This document shows positions 39,799 to 51,504 of a stretch of 64,000 nucleotides of DNA, piece by piece. The DNA is from Haloglomus litoreum. GTDB taxonomy: Archaea; Halobacteriota; Halobacteria; Halobacteriales; Haloarculaceae. Numbering within the stretch: position 1 is the first letter of the stretch; the number at the start of each line of letters is the position of its first letter. Location: positions 3,472,001 to 3,536,000 of the forward strand of contig NZ_CP119988.1 in assembly GCF_029338515.1 (NCBI RefSeq), written 5' to 3'. A program made the translations under genes and the position numbers. The notes under the pieces are model-generated. The model was not told the origin of the DNA, did no database searches, and worked only from the letters and a program-made list of their open reading frames with translations.

Positions 39799-40206
39799 CT
39801 ACGCGGCTTCCTCGCTGTTCGCGTTGATGAGCTGCTGGAGCTGCTCCATCCGGCGGTTCAGGTCGACCGCCGGGTCCGTCGAGCCCTGGGTCTGGAGGCG
39901 GTCGACCGTGAGGATGGGGTCGACGCCGGCGTCGATGACCACGTCCAGGAGCGCCTCGATATCCTGGCGGTTCAGGGCGAGCGAGTCCAGCAGTCCGATG
40001 GCGATGGCCATCGGGACCGCCACGTCGGGGTCCTGGGGGAACTCCTCACCGAGCTGCTCGAAGTCACCGCCCCCCTCCTCGGCGGGGTGGAGCCGGAGAC
40101 AGCGCGAGCAGAGGCCAGCGTGCTCGGTCTCGGCCGGGAGGTGGCCACGGTACGCCTCGGGCACGTCGAACGTCACGACGGCCGCGTTGCAGACGGGACA
40201 GCGCAT
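39799..40206 (-). CDS. haloarchaeal zinc-ribbon protein (DUF6276-like)
   Basis: This 135-residue protein has an N-terminal zinc ribbon: CPVC at residues 3-6 and CSRC near 35-38 in HAGLCSRCLRLHP. A helical region follows (AVPMAIAIGLLDSLALNRQDIEALLDVVIDAGVDPILTVDRL, in two blocks) and an acidic tail. The resemblance to a haloarchaea-specific DUF is from memory and the function is unknown. The ATG at 40206 begins MRCPVC; an in-frame GTG at 40212 is an alternative. It is convergent with glnA and lies just downstream of atpD on the same strand. Confidence 0.7.
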   Translation of the reverse strand: MRCPVCNAAVVTFDVPEAYRGHLPAETEHAGLCSRCLRLHPAEEGGGDFEQLGEEFPQDPDVAVPMAIAIGLLDSLALNRQDIEALLDVVIDAGVDPILTVDRLQTQGSTDPAVDLNRRMEQLQQLINANSEEAA

Positions 40207-40265
40207 ATCCACCCTTCACGGGCGGGGGTAAAAACCAGTAGGGGTAGCCGGACGTCCAGCGGCGG

Positions 40266-40961
40266 TCAGTCGTCGGCCGCGATCGGTTCCTCGGCCTCGG
40301 ATTCGGCCTCCTCCTCGGCGCGGGCGACGGACTCTTCCTCCTCCTTCTTGGCCTTGATCTTCTTCATGCGGAAGATCTCCTCGCGCTCCTGCTCCTCGAG
40401 CTTCTGCTCGATGTACTCCTGGTTCTCGTAGAGCTGCGGGAGGAGCGTGAACTCGAGCGCGTTGACGCGGCGCTTCGTCGTCTCGATCTCCGTGAGCATC
40501 TTCTTCATCGCCGTCTCGACCTCGGCGGCGAGGATGATGGTCTCCAGCAGCTCCTCGTAGGCCTCCGCGGCCTCGTCGATGCGCGCGGAGGTACCGACGA
40601 CGCCGTAGCCACGCTCGTCGAGGGACTTCTTCACCTTCGAGGACTCGATCTGCGGGACGACAACGCCCATGATGTTCTTCGACTGGGTCGTGATCTCCGG
40701 GTGCTCCTTGAGCGCGGCCGCGGCACCGCGCACCGAGACGTCGCCCTCCATCGCGCGCGCCATGTTGATGGCGCGCTGGGCCCGCTCGTAGCGGTCGTCC
40801 ATCTGATCGCGGACGTCCTGGGCCTGATCGAGGATGTCCATGAACTCCATGATGAGGCCGTCACGCTTCTTCTCGAGTGTGTCGTGGCCTCGCTCGGAGA
40901 GCTCGATGCGCTCCTCGATCGCCATGAGGTTCTTCCGCGTCGGCTTGACGTCCTTGGCCAT
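40266..40961 (-). CDS. atpD: A-type ATP synthase subunit D
   Basis: This 231-residue central-stalk subunit couples rotor movement to the A3B3 head. Long coiled-coil helices at both ends flank the family segments [20 protein letters not shown] (residues 6-25), the [18 protein letters not shown] middle and [15 protein letters not shown] (about 168-182). An acidic Glu-rich haloadapted tail follows. It is separated from atpB by two unrelated genes, whereas atpD normally follows atpB closely. It has the same orientation as the rest of the cluster. Confidence 0.95.
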
Positions 40962-41015: not shown

Positions 41016-41645
41016 TCAGACCGCGTCCTCGGCCTCCTCGCCGGCGTCGGGGCCGATACCGGCCGACGTCCGGACCTCGATGGGACCGTCACCCAGCTCG
41101 ACCGAGGCATCGAACAGCCCCGTGAGTGCCGTGAGCGGCTGTTCCTCGTGGGCGACCGGGTCCACGTGGAAGTGGCCGACGACCCCCTGCGTGTGGAGCC
41201 GCTCGACCAGCGGGTGGAGCAGCCGGTACGCCTCCTCGACCGTCGCGTACTGCAGGAGGGCGGTGACCGAGTCGAAGCAGAGCGTCGCCGGGCCGTCGGG
41301 CAGCGCGGAGAGTGCCTCGGTGACGGTGATCTCCAGCCCGGTCAGGTCGTCGGGGTTCTCCACCGGACGGACCCGCGCGTCCGTCTCGGCCGACCCGCCG
41401 AGCGCGTCACCGACGGTCACGACCTGGACCGTCCCGGGAGACCCGCGGTGCCCCTGCATCCGGTCGAGCCACTCCGCCGGGGTGCCCCGGTAGGTGACCG
41501 CGACCACCCCGTCAGGGTTGCCGGCCATCGAGAGGCTCGCGCAGGCGCTCTCCCGGTCATCGTGGAGCCCCGGCGAGCGAAGGAGGATGGCCGAGGCCCC
41601 CGACACCGCGGGCGGAACCCCGGCCAGGTCGGAGAGCTCGCGCAT
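41016..41645 (-). CDS. KaiC/RecA-like haloarchaeal protein without an evident Walker A
   Basis: This 209-residue cytoplasmic protein has the alternating strand-helix pattern of a RecA/KaiC fold. It includes ASAILLRSPGLHDDRESACASL at the P-loop position, VVAVTYRGTPAEWLDRMQGH, a Walker-B-like ATLCFDSVTALLQYA (about 118-132) and VVGHFHVDPVAHEEQPLTAL. The P-loop GxxxxGK is missing. It resembles haloarchaeal DUF7504-type proteins, from memory. The ATG at 41645 begins MRELSDLAG. It sits between the acyltransferase gene and atpD within the ATP synthase cluster. The function is unknown. Confidence 0.65.
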   Translation of the reverse strand: MRELSDLAGVPPAVSGASAILLRSPGLHDDRESACASLSMAGNPDGVVAVTYRGTPAEWLDRMQGHRGSPGTVQVVTVGDALGGSAETDARVRPVENPDDLTGLEITVTEALSALPDGPATLCFDSVTALLQYATVEEAYRLLHPLVERLHTQGVVGHFHVDPVAHEEQPLTALTGLFDASVELGDGPIEVRTSAGIGPDAGEEAEDAV

Positions 41646-41758: not shown

Positions 41759-43252
41759 TCAGTCGTCGGCCGGAACCGGGTCGACGCCCACCTGCGCGGC
41801 GATGGCCTCGAACTCGTCGACGAACGCCTCCGTCAGCTCCGTCGGGTCGTCGATCAGCCCGGCGTCCGAGGCGATACCGACCCGGACGTGGCCGTCGTAG
41901 CTGTAGATGCTGATGCCGAGCCCGATACCCTGGGAGGTCGGCACCCAGAACATCATGTCGCTCACCTCCGCCCCGGCGAAATGGAAGGTTTCCGTCGGTC
42001 CCGGGACGTTCGTGATGACCGACGAGGCCCGGTTTCGGAACCGCCACATCGCCAGGTCCTGGAACGGCATCGGCAGGTTCCCGACCGTCTTCAGCAGGGT
42101 CAGCATCAGCCACGCCTGCGTCCCCTGGCGGAGCGCACCGGTCCGGCTGCTGATCTCGTCGATGCGACCCTGGACGCTGTCGATGCCGACCGGGAGCTGG
42201 AGGAACCCGAGGCCGAAGGCGTTGCCCAGCTGCTCGTCGCGCCGGTCGAGCGGCTTCAGGTTGACCGGGATGGCGGTCCGGTGCTCGGCGTCGGGGTCGA
42301 CGGCGCCGTCGTGGGCCTCCAGGTACCGCCGGAGTGCGCCCGTGGTGGTCGCCAGCAGCACGTCGTTGATGGTGCCGTCGAACTCGCGACCCACGGCCTT
42401 CGCCCGGTCGACGTCGATGGGCTCGGTCCACGCGGCGCGTTTCTTCAGCCCGAGTTCGCCGCTGACGGCGGTGTCGGGCTCCTCCGGGAGCAGCATCGAC
42501 TCGGTGCCGATCTTCGCGGCGCGGGCGCCCCGCACGAGGAGGCTCGGCGCCTTCGAGAGCGACGCCAGGACGCCCGGCCCGTCGTCGGACCCGCCGCTCG
42601 TGTCGGTCGCGCCCGCCGCGTCCGAGGGCCCGCCCGGCGACGTGGCGTCCCCGTCGGCGGCGTGGTCCGGCGGGGCCGGGACCCCCCCGACGGGGAGGTT
42701 GATCTCGCTCGGGTCGTCGGCCAGACCCAGGAGGACGTACATCATCGCGAACCCGTCGCCCAGCGCGTGGTGGATGCGCATCACCAGCGCGTTCCCGTCG
42801 CCCGCACCCTCGACGAGGTAGGCCTGCCACAGCGGCTTGTCGTGGTCGACCGGCTGGCTCAGCAGGTCGCCCACGAACGACTGGAACTCGGCCTTGTCCT
42901 GTGGCTCGGGCAGCGCGACGTGGTGGAGGTGGCAGTCGATGTCGAACTGCTCGTCGAGCACCCACGTCGGCCGCCGGAACGGCGTCTCCTCGTTGATCAC
43001 CCGCTGGCGGAACCGCTTGAACGGGAGCAGCCGCTCCTGCAGTTGCTGGCGGACCGCCCCGTACGAGACGGGGTCGTCGAAGTAGAGCATCCCCGTGATG
43101 GTCATCAGGTTCGTCCGGTCACCCATCCGGAGCCAGCTGTTGTCGGGCCCCGAGAGCACCTCGCGGTCCGGCGGGTCCTCGCTCACGCCCACCACCCCGC
43201 CCCGTGCCGCGCCGTCGTCGCTGGTCCCGTCGCTGTCATGTGGTCCCCACAC
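41759..43252 (-). CDS. wax ester synthase/diacylglycerol acyltransferase-like protein (WS/DGAT)
   Basis: This 497-residue O-acyltransferase family protein carries the condensation-type catalytic motif HHxxxDG as RIHHALGDGFAMM (about residues 158-170). It also has the family segments LSGPDNSWLRM, DKPLWQAYLVEG (about 138-149), TINDVLLATTTGALRRYL, IPVNLKP and the C-terminal SSVITNVPGP. In bacteria such enzymes esterify acyl-CoA to fatty alcohols or diacylglycerol. In an ether-lipid archaeon the acceptor is unclear. The GTG at 43252 is the longest start; a GTG at 43186 (VSEDPP) is possible. It is inserted between atpB and atpD. Confidence 0.88.
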   Translation of the reverse strand: MWGPHDSDGTSDDGAARGGVVGVSEDPPDREVLSGPDNSWLRMGDRTNLMTITGMLYFDDPVSYGAVRQQLQERLLPFKRFRQRVINEETPFRRPTWVLDEQFDIDCHLHHVALPEPQDKAEFQSFVGDLLSQPVDHDKPLWQAYLVEGAGDGNALVMRIHHALGDGFAMMYVLLGLADDPSEINLPVGGVPAPPDHAADGDATSPGGPSDAAGATDTSGGSDDGPGVLASLSKAPSLLVRGARAAKIGTESMLLPEEPDTAVSGELGLKKRAAWTEPIDVDRAKAVGREFDGTINDVLLATTTGALRRYLEAHDGAVDPDAEHRTAIPVNLKPLDRRDEQLGNAFGLGFLQLPVGIDSVQGRIDEISSRTGALRQGTQAWLMLTLLKTVGNLPMPFQDLAMWRFRNRASSVITNVPGPTETFHFAGAEVSDMMFWVPTSQGIGLGISIYSYDGHVRVGIASDAGLIDDPTELTEAFVDEFEAIAAQVGVDPVPADD

Positions 43253-43492
43253 AGGGATGGGTGGTAAATGAAACCCACCGGTGGCGGGCCGGCACGCGGG
43301 ATTCCCCGTCCTGGGTCGGGACGGTGTCCGCGCACTCGGAAGCGAGAGAACGGTCCGATTATCCAGATGGCTGTCGAGAGGGTCCAGCCTCCGGACCGCT
43401 GCTTGGGAGGGAGAACTTGAGACGGAGCTGTTGCGACCGAACGAGGCGAGACTCGCAGAACGGGAGAAGGCGGACCGTCCCGTCGACGGTCG

Positions 43493-44923
43493 TCAGTCGG
43501 CGGCGACTTCCTCTTCCTCGCCGCCCTCGGTCTCGACGTCCTCGTGGTAGTACTTCTCGATGAGCTCCTCGTCGATCCGGTTGAGCTCCGGCTTCGGGAA
43601 CATCGAGAGCAGCTCCCAGCCCAGGTCGAGCGTCTCGTCGATGTCGCGGTCGGTGCGGAAGCCCTGCTGGACGAACTCCTGCTCGAAGCGGTCCGCGAAG
43701 TCCAGGTAGAGGTTGTCCCGCTCGGACAGTGCCTCGCGACCGACGATGTTCACGAGGTCGCGCAGGTCCTCACCCTCGGCGTACGCGGCGTACATCTGGT
43801 CGGAGACGTCGGCGTGGTCCTCGCGGGTGAGCCCCTCGCCGATACCGTCGTCCATCAGCCGCGAGAGGCTCGGCAGCACGTCGATGGGCGGCTTGATGCC
43901 CTGGCTGTTGAGGTCGCGGTCGACGTAGATCTGCCCCTCCGTGATGTAGCCGGTCAGGTCCGGGATGGGGTGCGTGTCGTCGTCGCCGGGCATCGTGAGG
44001 ATGGGGATCTGCGTGACAGAGCCCTCGACACCCTCGAGGCGGCCGGCGCGCTCGTACAGCGTCGCGAGGTCGGTGTACATGTACCCGGGGTAGCCACGGC
44101 GACCGGGCACCTCCTCGCGGGCCGCACCGATCTCGCGCAGCGCCTCGCAGTAGTTCGTCATGTCCGTCAGGATGACGAGCACGTGGTACCCCTTGTCGAA
44201 GGCGAGGTACTCGGCGGTCGTCAGGGCCAGGCGCGGCGTGACCGTCCGCTCGACCGCGGGGTCGTCCGCGAGGTTCATGAAGACGACCGACCGCTCGAGC
44301 GCACCGGTGCGCTCGAAGTCGTCCATGAACTCGTTGGCCTCCTCCTGGGTGATACCCATGGCGCCGAAGATGACGGCGAACTCGGACTCGCCACCCTCCT
44401 CGTCGGCCTCCTCCGGGACGGTCGCCTGGCGGGCGACCTGCAGGGCCAGCTCGTTGTGGGGCAGGCCCGACGCGGAGAAGATGGGGAGCTTCTGGCCGCG
44501 GACGAGGGTGTTCATGCCGTCGATGGCGGAGACGCCGGTCTGGATGAACTCCTCGGGGTACTCGCGGGCGGTCGGGTTGATGGCGGCGCCGACGATCTCC
44601 CGGCGCTCCTCCGGCTCGATGGCCGGGCCGTCGTCGATGGGCTCACCGGAGCCGCTCAGCACACGGCCGAGCAGGTCCTCCGTGAGCGGCATCTTCAGCG
44701 TCTCTCCCAGGAACCGCACCGAGGAGTTCTTGTCGATACCAGAGGTCCCCTCGAACACCTGGATGGCGACGAACTTGCTCGTCGACTCCAGGACCTGTCC
44801 GCGGCGGACCTCCCCGTTCGGTGTCTCGATCTCGACGATCTCGTCGTAGCCGACGGGCTCGTCGACCTCGGCGAACACCAGCGGGCCGCTGATCTCCGTG
44901 ATGGTCTTGTACTCTTTCTGCAT
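43493..44923 (-). CDS. atpB: A-type ATP synthase subunit B
   Basis: This 476-residue non-catalytic head subunit alternates with A in the hexamer. It begins [18 protein letters not shown]. The family segments [32 protein letters not shown] (two blocks, about 128-160) replace a functional P-loop. [43 protein letters not shown] and [18 protein letters not shown] follow. The Glu-rich tail is haloadaptive. It starts 2 nt after the atpA stop, so it is in the same operon. 240 bp separate its end from the acyltransferase start. Confidence 0.98.
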
Positions 44924-44925
44924 TG

Positions 44926-46695
44926 TCAGTACTTCTCCCGCAGTTCGGTCTCGATCTGTTCCTCGACCTCGTCGATGAACTCGTGGTAGTCCTCGGCGAC
45001 GCCCATCCGGTTCAGGCGCGGCGCGCCGTCGATGGCGATGATCTCCTCGATGGGGACGCCGGCGTCGAGCGCCTTGAACGCCTCGTCGTTGAACGTCTTG
45101 ATGGCACCGAGCATCCGGAACGTCTTCTCCGGTTCGCAGTAGGTGTCGACGTCGTGGAAGGCGTTCTGCTGGAGGTAGGCCTCACGCAGGTAGCGTGCGA
45201 CCTCCAGCGTGAGCTGCTGGTCCTCCGGCAGCGCGTCCTTCCCGACGAGCTGGACGATCTCCTGCAGTTCGTCCTCCTCGTCGAGCGTGTCGACGGCCCA
45301 CTGACGGCGGTCGGGCCAGTCCTCGTCGACGTTGTCCGTGAACCAGGGGTCGAGCTGGTCCTGGTACAGCGAGTAGGACTCGTTCCAGTTGATGGACGGG
45401 AAGTGCCGACGCTCCGCGAGGTCGGCGTCCAGCGCCCAGAACGTCTTCACGATACGCAGGGTGTTCTGGGTGACCGGCTCCGAGAAGTCGCCGCCCGGCG
45501 GCGACACGGCGCCGATGACCGAGATGGAGCCCTCCGTCTCGTTCAGGTTCTGGAACTTGCCGGCCCGCTCGTAGAACTCGCTGAGGCGGGCGGCCAGGTA
45601 CGCCGGATAGCCCTCCTCACCGGGCATCTCCTCCAGTCGGGAGGAGATCTCGCGCATGGCCTCGGCCCACCGGGAGGTGGAGTCGGCCATCAGCGCCACG
45701 TCGTACCCCATGTCGCGGTAGTACTCCGCGATGGTGATACCCGTGTACACGCAGGACTCGCGCGCCGCGACGGGCATGTTCGACGTGTTCGCGATGAGGC
45801 AGGTCCGGGACATGAGCGGGTTGCCCGTGATGGGGTCCTCCAGCTCGGGGAAGTCCTCGATGACCTCCGTCATCTCGTTGCCACGCTCGCCACAGCCGAC
45901 GTAGACGACGATGTCCGCGTCGGCCCACTTCGCGAGCTGGTGCTGGGTGACCGTCTTCCCGGAGCCGAACGGGCCCGGGATGGCGGCCGTCCCACCCTTC
46001 GCGATGGGGAAGAGGCCGTCGAGGATGCGCTGGCCACTGACCAGCGGCGTCGTCGGCGTCTCCTTCTCCTGGCTCGGCCGGGGCTCCCGGACGGGCCACT
46101 CCTGGTGCATGGAGATCTCGGTCCCGGTGTCGAGTTCGACGACCGTCTCGTCGACGGTGTGCTCGCCACCGTTGACCTCGACGACCTCGCCGGAGTTGTC
46201 CTCGTCACCACGCTCGGGCGGGACCAGGACCTTGTGCTCGATCTGGACCGTCTCCTGGACGGTCCCGAGGATGTCGCCGGGGGTGACCTCGTCGCCGACC
46301 TCGACGGACGGCTCGAAGGTCCACTCCTTCTCCAGGTCGATACCGGGCGCGTCGACCCCACGGTCGAGGAAGGCACCCATCTGCTCCTCGAGGACGTCGA
46401 GGGGGCGCTGGACGCCGTCGTAGATGGAGTCCAGCATCCCCGGCCCGAGGTCCACCGTGAGCGGCTCGCCGGTGTTCTCGACCGGCTCGCCGGGGGCCAC
46501 GGCGGACGTCTCCTCGTACACCTGGATGGTAGTCCGGTTGCCCTCGATCTCGATGACCTCACCCATCAGGCCCTCGTCGCCGACGTAGACGACGTCGTTC
46601 ATCCGCGCGTCCAGGTCCGTCGCCACGACGACCGGGCCACTTACACTGTCGATGACCCCGTCCGATTCGGGGGCCGTGTCTGTCGCTTGGCTCAT
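44926..46695 (-). CDS. atpA: A-type ATP synthase subunit A (catalytic)
   Basis: This 589-residue catalytic head subunit has the N-terminal beta-barrel ([25 protein letters not shown]) and the A-subunit-specific non-homologous insert (about 110-190). The Walker A is [11 protein letters not shown] near residue 237. The Walker B/arginine-finger regions include [18 protein letters not shown] and [17 protein letters not shown]. No intein is present, although archaeal atpA often carries one. It lies 2 nt after atpF and 2 nt before atpB, a tightly packed operon. Confidence 0.98.
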
Positions 46696-46697
46696 GT

Positions 46698-47018
46698 TTA
46701 ATCCTCCATCAGGTCGATGCCGATCGCGCGCTTGATCTGCTCGCGGAGGGCTCCGCCGCTGGAGTCCCCGCCGAGCGTCACGAGCACGGGCTCGACACTC
46801 GTTTCGACGTTGCGTCGGACGGTCCGCGAGAGGTGGTCGAGGTCGTCGTCGTGCATCACGACGATGCCGACGTCGTCGTCCTCGAACAGCTCCGTGACCG
46901 CCTCGTCGAGTTCCTCCTCTTTCTGTTCGTCCGGCACGTTCGCGAAGCGCCGGACGCCCGCGAGCCGGAAGCCCGTCGTGAAGTCGGGACTCCCGACCAC
47001 GCCGATCTCCTGACTCAT
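46698..47018 (-). CDS. atpF: A-type ATP synthase subunit F
   Basis: This 106-residue central-stalk regulatory subunit has a Rossmann-like layout: [22 protein letters not shown] at the start, an acidic helix ([30 protein letters not shown]) in the middle, and [21 protein letters not shown] at the end. It overlaps atpC by 4 nt and precedes atpA by 2 nt. The length and order within the cluster are standard. Confidence 0.95.
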
Positions 47019-48073
47019 AGTACCACCAGTTCCTCGTTGATCTCCTCCTCGCTCAGGCCGGCCTCCCGACCGCGCGCGATGGCGCGGATGTTGTCGATCT
47101 CGCGCTCCTTCGCGAGCACGTAGCCGAGCACCGGGCAGACCGACAGCGGGTAGCGGCTCGAGAGCTGGCCGGCGTACTCGAGCAGGGCCGCGTCCAGTGC
47201 GTTCTCGAACCCGATGAGGCTCTGGGCCGCTTCGAGCGCGTCGAGCGCCTCGTCCAGGTCGTCGCCGTACGGCGACTCCCGGACGCGGGCCGCGAGCTCG
47301 TCGGGGTTCTTCGCCAGCTGGCGGAGGTCATCCTCGGCGAACAGCCGGCCTCCGTCGATGAAGTAGTCCGCCGGGTCCATGTCCGCGCCGGAGTAGGCCA
47401 GCCGGAACGCGTTCCGCAGGTTCCGGAAGTCGATCTCCGCGCGGAGGAACTCGATGTAGAGCTCCGTCGCGCGGCCCGGCTCCTCCGGGAGGTCGTCGAG
47501 CAGGTGGCCGTAGAACGCGCGGTCGACGGCGTTCTCCAGCGGCACCAGCTCGCCGCGCTCCTCGTACACCTCCAGCGCCGCCTCGAGCGGCCCGTGGAAC
47601 ATCGTCCCGCGGGTCGCCTCGATGGCCTCCTCCATCGAACCGGCATCGAGCAGGCGATTCAGTCGCTCCTCGCCGAACTCGCCGGCCCGGATGAAGTCGT
47701 CCTCGACCGACGCGCGGTCGGCATCCGAGTAGATGCCACGCAGCTTGGTCTTGACGTTCCAGGCGTCGAACTTCCGGAGGTAGCGGGCGACGTAGTCGTA
47801 CAGCTTCCCGTCGGCCCACCGAAGCAGGTCGTCGAAGTTGTTCGCCAGGTTCCGGTTGAGGGCGTACTCGATGAGGTCGACGCCGCTGTGTCGCGACCCC
47901 AGCGCGTTCATCTCCGCCTCGTACTCGGACTCCTCCATGAAGCGGGCGATCTCGCCCGTCCCCATCCGCGTCAGCTTGCGGTAGTCGTCCTCGTCGAAGA
48001 GCCGGGCGCGCCGGGACCGCACCCGCGCGGTGACGTACTCGTAGTTCGAGCTGCCCTGGGTTCGCGTGCTCAT
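47015..48073 (-). CDS. atpC: A-type ATP synthase subunit C
   Basis: This 352-residue funnel-shaped subunit links the central stalk to the membrane rotor. It is all-helical with [24 protein letters not shown] at the N-terminus, [21 protein letters not shown], and C-terminal [28 protein letters not shown], the last being the V-ATPase subunit d/AC39 signature. It overlaps atpE and atpF by 4 nt each. Confidence 0.97.
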
Positions 48074-48654
48074 CGCTCCTCGAACAGGCGCTCGGAGATG
48101 GCCCGGAGGTTGTCCTCCCAGACCTCGTCGAGCACCGAATCGAACGTATTGTTCACACGGACGCGCGAGCCCTCGCTCTCGACCACGACGCCGCCGAGGC
48201 AGTCGACGGGGTCGCCGACCTCGAAGCCGTCGTGGTCGTCACAGATCGTCTCCAGCAGGTCGGCGTCCGACTCCCGGCCACGAACGCGGACGGTGTCGGC
48301 GTCCTCGAACTCGGGTGCGGCGGCCTCCAGCAGGGTCCGGGTGAGCCCCTCGCGGCGCTCACCCTCCAGCCCGGCGATCTCCTCCTCGACGTCCGTGCGG
48401 ACGTCCTGGAGCAGTTCGCGACGGGCCTCCAGTCGCTCCTGCTTGGCCTCCAGCTTCGCGCTGGAGAGGGCCTGCTCGCGCTCCTGTTCGATGGTCCGCT
48501 CGACCTCCTGCTCGGCGTCGGCCTCGATCTCCTCGGCGTCGGCCTCCGCCTCGGCGACGATCTGCTCGGCTCGCTCCTCGCCCTCCGCGCGGATCTCCTC
48601 CGCGCGCGTGCGCGCTTCGTCTCGAATGTCCTCTACGACCGTATCAAGGCTCAT
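48070..48654 (-). CDS. atpE: A-type ATP synthase subunit E
   Basis: This 194-residue peripheral-stalk subunit has a long N-terminal coiled coil (about residues 1-95) dominated by Glu/Arg/Ala heptads such as RAEEIRAEGEERAEQIV. A globular C-terminal domain follows with GDPVDCLGGVVVESEGSRVRVNNTFDSVL (in two blocks), typical of the E family. It pairs with AtpH to form the stator. It overlaps atpC by 4 nt and lies 22 nt after atpK. Confidence 0.95.
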   Translation of the reverse strand: MSLDTVVEDIRDEARTRAEEIRAEGEERAEQIVAEAEADAEEIEADAEQEVERTIEQEREQALSSAKLEAKQERLEARRELLQDVRTDVEEEIAGLEGERREGLTRTLLEAAAPEFEDADTVRVRGRESDADLLETICDDHDGFEVGDPVDCLGGVVVESEGSRVRVNNTFDSVLDEVWEDNLRAISERLFEER

Positions 48655-49236: not shown

Positions 49237-51504
49237 TCAGTCGTCGCCGGCGAACCGGGTCTCGTAGCCGAACGGCTCGTACTCGTCGCCGCCGCCCTCG
49301 TAGAACTTCCCGAAGAACTCGACGTACTCGAGACGCACGGCCTGCAGGCCGGCGCTCGTCACGCCGAGCGCGAGCACCAGCAGGTGCCCGAGGACGAGGA
49401 TGACGATGCCGCCCAGCGCGGCGCCGATGCCGCCGTGGACGAGCCCGCCGAACATGACCTCCGTGACCTCGTGGCCGTGGTAGGTCCCCTGTTCGAGGTA
49501 GTAGGCCGGCGAGTGGTCGATACCGAAGTGCCACGCCGGGCCGCTCTCGGTCTCGGTGACCCAGACGCCGAAGAACAGGAGGTTGACGACGAACGCCATC
49601 CCCGCCTTCGCGAGCAGGACCGCCGCGAGTCGCGTGTACGAGAGGACGTTGACGAGCACGTTGAGGAACTCGACGCCCTCGATGGGCTCACCCGCGACGA
49701 GCAGGACGAGCCCGAGGCCGAACACCGCCAGCCCGGCGAGGCCGACCGTCGGCGAGAAGCCGGCGAAGCCGAGCGGGAACGGGTTGCCGTTGAAGACGCT
49801 GTCGGCGCCGTAGATGAGGTCCGGGGCGGACCCGCTGGCGCCGGCGAAGATCCACGCCCACAGGCCGAACATCATCATCAGCCAGGAGCCGGATTCGAGC
49901 ATCGCGTCCTTGAACCCGTGCGAGAGGTTCTCGTAGAAGTCGAAGATCCACCCGACGGTCAGGTGGAGGACGCCGGCGATGAGGCTCAGGACGAGCCAGC
50001 CGAGCGCGTAGTCGCTGTACTCGGGGATGAGCCCCTTGTGGATGGGCGGGCTACCGCCCCAGACGATCTCGCCGAGCTGGTGCAGCCCGAAGAACTCGCC
50101 GTACAGCACACCGAATATCGCGGTGAAGAAGCCCGCGAGGACGCCGACGCCGCCCAGCGACCGGATGATGTCCGAGTCGAACTGGGTCATCAGCGCACCG
50201 CCGAGCAGCATGTACAGGATACCGTAGCCGAGGTCACCGATCATGAACCCGTAGAAGACGGGGAACGTCAGGAACAGGATGACCGTCGGGTCGAGCTCGC
50301 TGTACTTCGGCCGGTTGATGACCTCGACCAGCGCCTCGAACGGCTTCACCGGGCCGGGGTTGTCCTGGATGACCGGCGGCGTGGAGTGGCTCATCGCCAC
50401 GTCCGCACCCGCGCCGTCGGTCGCCACGTCGGCCTCCGCGATGCGACCCAGGTCGCGGCCGCCGTCGGACGCGACCTCGCCTCCATCGGCGGCCGCGGGC
50501 TCGCCGACGCCGCCGCCGGCCGCGCCGCCCGCCACGTCCTCGGAGTCGGTCGGGTGGCCGTCCTCGTTGTAGTCGGCGACCTCTAGCAGGTCCACGTCGA
50601 CGTGGTCGCCGACGGCGTCCTGCAGGCCCTCGGCCAGGTCGACGTACTCGTCGTACGGGAGCCAGCCCTCGGCGACGAAGGCGTTCTCCGTCGTCGCGAA
50701 GGAGAGCGGCGCCTCGGCCTTCTGGACCTTGACCGCGAGCTTCTCCTCGGCCGCGAGGAGGAAGCCGCCGTAGTCCTCGCGCAGGCGGTCGAGCTGTTCC
50801 TCGACCTCCTCGAGGTCGGCCTGGAGGTCACGCCTGCGGGCCTCCAGCTCGTCGACGTACTGCTCGGGACTGATGCTCTCGCCGCCCTCGCCGAGGTCGG
50901 GCACCTCGTAGGACGTGAACTGCGCGCCCACCAGGGCGTCCGTGATGTCGACAGCGGGGTAGGCGAACACCGCGAGCACGTCGCTCTCGTCGGCGGCGAA
51001 CGTCTCGTGGCTGTCGACGCCGGGCTGCTCGACCAGTGCCGCACGCACGCTCTCCTCGTCGCCCTCGCCGACGGCGACCGAGAGGTTGTCGTAGCCGTCC
51101 AGCAGGTCCAGGTCGATGCCCAGCTCGACGAACGGGCGCACCGAGTCCAGCTCCTCCTCGACGCTCCGGAGCTCGTCGGTGAGTTCGTCGCGCCGGTCGT
51201 CCTGTGCGTTGACCTGCTCGCGGATCTCCTCGATCTCGGCGTACAGGTCGTCGGCATCGACGGGGCGGCTCTCGGCGTCGGACTCGTCGACACCGAGGAT
51301 GGACTCCAGCGACCGGACCGTCACCAGCGCCTCGGAGGCACGGTCGGCGCCCTGCTGTGGGGAGCCGGGCTCGAAGCCCTCCCAGCCACCGTCGTAGTCC
51401 GTGAGGTGGAGCAGGTTGAGGTCGTGGGCCGTCTCGACCACGTCGTCGAGAACTGCTTTGGATCCCGTCACCGAGACCCGGCCCATCTTCTCAGGTCTGA
51501 GCAT
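49237..51504 (-). CDS. atpI: A-type ATP synthase subunit I (membrane a subunit)
   Basis: This 755-residue stator subunit has a cytoplasmic N-terminal half with coiled coils (LEEVEEQLDRLREDYGGFL) and a C-terminal half of about seven to eight transmembrane helices. The membrane part has FPVFYGFMIGDLGYGILYMLLG, FTAIFGVLYGEFFGLHQLG and LSYTRLAAVLLAKAGMAFVVNLL, the last holding the conserved Arg of the proton half-channel. A Gly/Asp-rich linker (about 320-365) separates the halves. It overlaps atpH by 14 nt; a 308-bp gap follows before atpK. Confidence 0.97.
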   Translation of the reverse strand: MLRPEKMGRVSVTGSKAVLDDVVETAHDLNLLHLTDYDGGWEGFEPGSPQQGADRASEALVTVRSLESILGVDESDAESRPVDADDLYAEIEEIREQVNAQDDRRDELTDELRSVEEELDSVRPFVELGIDLDLLDGYDNLSVAVGEGDEESVRAALVEQPGVDSHETFAADESDVLAVFAYPAVDITDALVGAQFTSYEVPDLGEGGESISPEQYVDELEARRRDLQADLEEVEEQLDRLREDYGGFLLAAEEKLAVKVQKAEAPLSFATTENAFVAEGWLPYDEYVDLAEGLQDAVGDHVDVDLLEVADYNEDGHPTDSEDVAGGAAGGGVGEPAAADGGEVASDGGRDLGRIAEADVATDGAGADVAMSHSTPPVIQDNPGPVKPFEALVEVINRPKYSELDPTVILFLTFPVFYGFMIGDLGYGILYMLLGGALMTQFDSDIIRSLGGVGVLAGFFTAIFGVLYGEFFGLHQLGEIVWGGSPPIHKGLIPEYSDYALGWLVLSLIAGVLHLTVGWIFDFYENLSHGFKDAMLESGSWLMMMFGLWAWIFAGASGSAPDLIYGADSVFNGNPFPLGFAGFSPTVGLAGLAVFGLGLVLLVAGEPIEGVEFLNVLVNVLSYTRLAAVLLAKAGMAFVVNLLFFGVWVTETESGPAWHFGIDHSPAYYLEQGTYHGHEVTEVMFGGLVHGGIGAALGGIVILVLGHLLVLALGVTSAGLQAVRLEYVEFFGKFYEGGGDEYEPFGYETRFAGDD

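Follow-up and report, generated by a model that had tools for sequence, protein, structure and literature searches.

The ATP synthase cluster of the haloarchaeon Haloglomus litoreum contains a gene for a WS/DGAT-type O-acyltransferase, which raises the questions of what this enzyme acylates, which donor it uses, and how its gene came to lie among those for ATP synthase subunits. We analyzed the surrounding 64,000 nucleotides (contig NZ_CP119988.1, positions 3,472,001 to 3,536,000; hereafter the window) together with the host genome, which consists of one contig of 4.70 Mb. The gene occupies positions 41759–43252 on the minus strand, where the longest frame encodes 497 amino acids; the plus-strand frame over the same positions is open, without a family match. 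A first-pass annotation had assigned the product to the WS/DGAT family, and this assignment was confirmed by the NCBIfam model TIGR02946, which matches at 378.2 bits (cut-off 309.95) over profile positions 1–451 of 453, and by the Pfam domains PF03007 (4.2e-38) and PF06974 (2e-33), both over their cut-offs. The two motifs that it had read as complete are indeed so: HHALGDG lies at residues 161–167 and is kept in all four alignment rows (the window and three related loci), and NVPGP lies at residues 415–419 and also occurs in the archaeal rows of a wider comparison. The protein resembles bacterial WS/DGATs such as that of Acinetobacter baylyi in domain layout, in the HHxxxDG and NVPGP motifs, and in its full-length profile match; among PDB sequences its relatives are 6chj (4.1e-23, spanning residues 45–461) and 7nxg (5.9e-23). 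Plasmid-borne bacterial WS/DGATs share only about 24–30% identity with it over the covered part. An AlphaFold2 model built from four similar rows has a mean pLDDT of 29.1.

Homologues with 79–90% identity occupy the equivalent location in four other Haloglomus-type genomes, which excludes a chance ORF; the closest named relatives are Haloglomus halophilum (90%), the MAG QS_4_70_19 (83%), and H. irregulare (79%). Comparison of these sequences indicates that translation probably begins at GTG 43186, which would yield a protein of 475 amino acids. This start is favored because the N-terminal stretch 5′ of DREVLSG is poorly conserved across five Haloglomus-type genomes and because a matching start codon lies 9–11 codons 5′ of a conserved L.G.DN.W motif in these genomes. 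The matching codon is ATG in H. irregulare, G366, G401, and G406 and GTG in the window and G400. A tentative leader ORF of 18 codons (43183–43239, minus strand) ends in a TGA that overlaps the probable GTG start, and an ATG-started frame of 16–20 codons with an equal start overlap is found in 5/5 Haloglomus-type genomes. Such an xTGA overlap arises with any second codon that begins with A, so that the leader ORF is suggestive only and no claim is based on it. On the 5′ side of this ORF is a stretch that we tentatively regard as TATA-like, TTTCATTTA (43265–43273, minus strand), and the sequence GGTTTC(A/T)T is conserved in all five upstream regions.

The enzyme, its pathway, and its place in the atp cluster were published in 2025, and the window gene is thus known in all main points. 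According to the accessible text of Grossi et al. (ISME J, PMC11948995), 5679 archaeal genomes yielded WS/DGATs in 26 Halobacteriales, mostly Haloarculaceae, with Natronomonas, Haloglomus, Halorarius, and Halovenus among the genera named; the haloarchaeal genes often lie in the atp cluster, HH and NH copies occur together in two taxa, and wax esters were shown in Natronomonas pharaonis. A previous analysis of 427 archaeal proteomes reported no WS/DGAT, as far as its accessible text goes (PMC6355812). Archaeal wax esters overturn the view of fatty-acid neutral lipids as bacterial and eukaryotic; the discovery dates from 2025, and the window gene is one more carrier. The same article describes FcrA, a fatty acyl-CoA reductase related to HMGR with an alkyl-binding N-terminal domain (Lad), whose activity, in the text available, was demonstrated solely with a bacterial FcrA (PMC11948995). 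H. litoreum agrees with this published system in family, order, genus, atp-cluster place, presence of FcrA in the genome, and possession of two WS/DGAT copies with HH and NH motifs. One difference concerns the motif: in the accessible text the wax-ester producer has an NH enzyme, whereas the window gene is of the HH form, and no assay of an archaeal HH enzyme is described (PMC11948995). What the present analysis adds is the location of HH and NH genes on opposite sides of atpD, the atpB–atpD interval as a common insertion site, and a candidate regulator that combines a Lad domain with a probable winged helix (Lad-HTH).

The host genome contains candidates for several parts of such a pathway. 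Two WS/DGATs are present, the window copy (HH) and a second at C1:249432-250808 (NH), which are 48% identical. There are also two HMGR-type genes, of which that at C1:600310 is canonical and that around C1:2125911 joins a Lad domain (PF25653, 2.3e-39) to an HMGR core (PF00368, 2.3e-124). Alignment of this FcrA candidate with the host's canonical HMGR revealed LEGNFATDKK in place of LSGNLCSDKK, in which Glu replaces Ser, and SDWVTSH in place of SHLASAH, in which Trp replaces Leu. We take these to be the columns of the published Ser/Glu and Leu/Trp changes, a correspondence based on human HMGR numbering. Ser-to-Glu and Leu-to-Trp changes characterize FcrA in the accessible text of PMC11948995, and the host homologue thus shares with this HMGR class I relative both domains and both substitutions. 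Scored as a single long frame that joins Lad to HMGR, FcrA occurs in 22 of the 26 family genomes with WS/DGAT compared with 5 of the 120 others; in a sample of the order, where the long frame stands for FcrA, the counts are 10/14 and 4/378. The corresponding Fisher values (1.5e-17 and 4.6e-14) ignore kinship and are overstated. The four WS/DGAT genomes in which FcrA was not found are all assemblies of 72–78% completeness; conversely, five family genomes have FcrA and no strong WS/DGAT match. The host genome also has 42 AMP-binding matches, a family too broad to single out FadD among the ligases. PF01553, the PlsC-type (glycerol-phosphate-type) acyltransferase family, has no match in the host genome and matches in 10 of 14 control genomes.

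These findings bear on the donor and the acceptor, a question that the first-pass annotation had raised and that the published work and the host FcrA gene now answer: they are most likely acyl-CoA and fatty alcohol (PMC11948995, accessible text). We consider it probable, at roughly 0.8, that the product of the window gene is a WS/DGAT-family wax-ester synthase that uses acyl-CoA and a fatty alcohol made by FcrA. Fatty acids from the surroundings would be converted to acyl-CoA by FadD-type ligases, FcrA would reduce part of this acyl-CoA to fatty alcohol with NADPH, and the WS/DGAT, in which the second His of HHxxxDG would act in catalysis, would join acyl-CoA and alcohol to form a wax ester. 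Such activity is predicted for this strain from the protein family, the motifs, the gene order, the selectivity residues of FcrA, the co-occurrence of genes across genomes, and the absence of a PlsC-type acyltransferase match, all observed here.

All genes of the cluster lie on the minus strand in the order atpI (49237–51504), atpE (48070–48654), atpC (47015–48073), atpF (46698–47018), atpA (44926–46695), atpB (43493–44923), WS/DGAT, a DUF7504 gene, atpD (40266–40961), and a DUF6276 gene (39799–40212; PF19792, 4.7e-42), after which comes a glutamine synthetase gene on the plus strand. The first five were assigned by Pfam, subunit B by TIGR01041 (851.7 bits, over cut-off), and subunit D by PF01813 (6.8e-59) and NF001542. 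The location of the acyltransferase gene between atpB upstream and atpD downstream had been described correctly, save that no strand had been given and that the DUF7504 gene (41016–41645, 209 amino acids; PF24336, 1.8e-29), which separates it from atpD, had been missed. A DUF7504 gene is present in the atpB–atpD interval of most genomes with an atp-linked WS/DGAT and was not found there in G366.

Across the order the gene is rare. A strong PF03007 match was obtained in only 14 of 392 sampled genomes. Five further genomes (G098, G137, G215, G336, and G342; loci L016-L020) gave weak matches to frames of 439–465 amino acids with an [NS]HVAADG motif and no NxPGP/NVPGP; these were regarded as a different group of acyltransferases and enter none of the WS/DGAT counts. 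Three of the five (G137, G215, and G098) carry FcrA in the absence of a true WS/DGAT. The window protein has a strong match in 26 of the 146 family genomes; G167 and G098, whose matches are weak and fragment-like, are not counted. In 18 of the 26 the gene is linked to atp genes, 7 times between atpB and atpD and 11 times directly after atpD and before DUF6276. Seven of the remaining eight have no atp gene in the stretch examined, and in G435 the locus is cut by a contig end, with DUF6276 following. H. irregulare provides one more atpB–atpD placement beyond the 26, and in three Haloglomus genomes the second WS/DGAT copy has no link to atp, nor have the Halovenus-like copies. Placement and motif coincide: 8/8 genes between atpB and atpD are of the HH form, and 11/11 genes after atpD are of the NH form; among the genomes examined, none has both places filled. 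The accessible text of PMC11948995 does not tie the two motifs to the two sides of atpD. Within Haloglomus the atpB–atpD interval carries the gene in 5/5 genomes, and its insertion in this strain is therefore not recent.

To what extent does this location speak for gene transfer? It had been assumed that atpB and atpD normally lie close together, so that an intervening gene had probably been inserted by transfer, and synteny in relatives had been proposed as a check. The relatives do not support this inference. In 109 of the 146 family genomes, atpB and atpD share a contig and a strand and lie no more than 20 kb apart, genomes with the genes on different contigs or strands or farther apart being set aside; gap coordinates came from searches with matches in 143 and 140 genomes. 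In the 93 linked genomes without WS/DGAT, the gap ranges from 89 to 5967 bases with a median of 970; it exceeds 1 kb in 40 and falls below 300 bases in only 14. Rhodopsin genes occupy the gap in at least 44 of these 93 genomes, a lower bound from 56 places that were picked by eye among those listed and entered. Pfam confirmed rhodopsin in three intervals examined as examples, one of which also encodes a BAT-type regulator and another of which has a lycopene-cyclase-like match below cut-off; a fourth interval contains a beta-carotene dioxygenase. We found no description of a rhodopsin slot between atpB and atpD in the literature searched. In three genomes without WS/DGAT (G187, G409, and G410), DUF7504 is the sole tested gene seen in the slot, and it is plausible that this arrangement represents the prior state. 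(A frame of 677 amino acids in L088, tried as a DUF7504 query, overlaps atpB; it is spurious and was left out.) The interval is thus a common insertion site (loci L134, L136, and L149), and location in it is weak evidence of transfer.

The place of the gene suggests a further possibility, which is compatible with wax-ester synthesis and is raised in the accessible text of PMC11948995: the WS/DGAT may be co-transcribed with the ATP synthase and its expression thereby tied to the energy state. All genes lie on one strand, and atp linkage in 18 of the 26 carriers accords with this notion, as does constant WS/DGAT expression with and without wax production (PMC11948995, accessible text). Against it stand the 240 bases that separate atpB from the longest WS/DGAT frame, the TATA-like stretch kept in 5/5 genomes, the unrelated cargo of the interval in relatives, and the copies unlinked to atp. 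We therefore regard joint expression with the atp genes as possible but rather doubtful.

The presence of two copies invites the conjecture that they divide the work, the NH copy forming ordinary wax esters and the HH copy acylating an isoprenoid alcohol or an acceptor related to ether lipids to yield mixed isoprenoid-fatty esters. Three of four searched Haloglomus genomes retain one copy from each group, with about 48% identity between the two. WS/DGATs are also loose in their choice of alcohol. However, four genomes with only an HH copy (G405, G406, G307, and G366) have FcrA too, which fits an ordinary fatty alcohol, and such a division of roles appears unlikely.

Formation of triacylglycerol (TAG) from diacylglycerol has to be weighed because the protein family, and TIGR02946 itself, spans both activities; the A. 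baylyi enzyme, like other bifunctional bacterial WS/DGATs, also makes TAG (PMC11948995, accessible text). In the host genome, FcrA together with the lack of PF01553 makes acyl-CoA and fatty alcohol the best donor and acceptor, with the proviso that one missing Pfam family does not mean that every route is missing. The accessible text of PMC11948995 further reports no TAG in N. pharaonis and TAG-pathway enzymes missing in Halobacteriales. TAG synthesis by the window enzyme is accordingly highly unlikely. A secondary-metabolite acyltransferase of the condensation/PapA superfamily, to which a weak Condensation-domain match (1.3e-5, below cut-off) would point, is more improbable than any of these, as matches to the WS/DGAT models are much stronger and span the full length and no biosynthetic genes were recognized near the gene.

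Comparison with bacterial WS/DGATs, which had been proposed as a check, was made with 42 rows, of which 35 are archaeal and 7 bacterial; the latter include no close relative such as Persicimonas, and their long branches render the bacterial side unreliable. The archaeal rows separate from the bacterial ones with a support of 100/100. Together with the occurrence in 14 of 392 genomes, this supports the proposed transfer for the archaeal clade as a whole; the same claim as it had been drawn from location did not stand. Within the archaeal rows, 12 HH and 23 NH rows form two groups (96/86 and 93/91), and these are found on opposite sides of atpD, which implies that the gene was inserted twice or that an ancestral pair was lost differently in different lineages. 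Four HH rows that belong to a different family of the order nest within the HH group, next to Haloglomus and G307 (95/89), and point to transfer between families. The WS/DGAT family would then have entered haloarchaea from bacteria, its HH and NH groups settling on opposite sides of atpD, in an interval that frequently receives further genes.

A second Lad occurrence (PF25653) was found in most WS/DGAT genomes as a separate frame of about 290–340 amino acids without an HMGR core. In the host genome this protein, of about 290 amino acids, is encoded at C1:4569066-4569932 (L161:7067-7933); further members are found at L163-L165, L168-L170, and L172-L174, and ten members align over 297 columns. 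Pfam analysis of three members revealed an N-terminal Lad domain (3e-27 to 3e-28) followed by a C-terminal part with sub-cut-off matches, chiefly to winged-helix models (HVO_A0261_N, 8e-6; HTH_29, 4e-4; TrmB, 4.5e-4), and this part is probably a winged helix; a profile of the alignment found no match among PDB sequences at E values up to 1. Lad-HTH accompanies WS/DGAT in 19 of 26 family genomes and occurs in 1 of 120 others, with G431 counted from a partial sub-cut-off match and G435 from a short frame; the Fisher values (3.9e-17 in the family and 3.6e-14 in the order sample) again ignore kinship and are overstated. We infer from the accessible text of PMC11948995 that the genera coded g4, g9, and g96 are Natronomonas-like, Halovenus-like, and Halorarius-like, respectively. 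Within g4, Lad-HTH is present in 12/12 WS/DGAT genomes versus 1/8 others, and the seven WS/DGAT genomes that do not have it all belong to g9. In a genome of another family (f9, G037) about 13 kb separate it from the HH gene; among the neighbors inspected elsewhere, to which no family library was applied, no pathway genes were recognized next to it. The main text of PMC11948995, in the part accessible, does not name this protein, and its Supplementary Table 3, which covers families that co-occur with WS/DGAT, may well list it. We tentatively propose, at clearly less than even odds, that a dedicated alkyl-sensing transcription factor serves the wax-ester pathway of haloarchaea: Lad-HTH would recognize a fatty acid, acyl-CoA, or fatty alcohol and in response switch genes for wax-ester or fatty-acid metabolism.

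Finally, an additional gene for subunit D of a V/A-type ATP synthase (G000:C1:4336302-4336901) encodes a protein with 48% identity to that of the window atpD, and G406 likewise has a second V/A-type subunit D gene, with 34% identity. The extra gene is possibly a sign of a second ATPase cluster.
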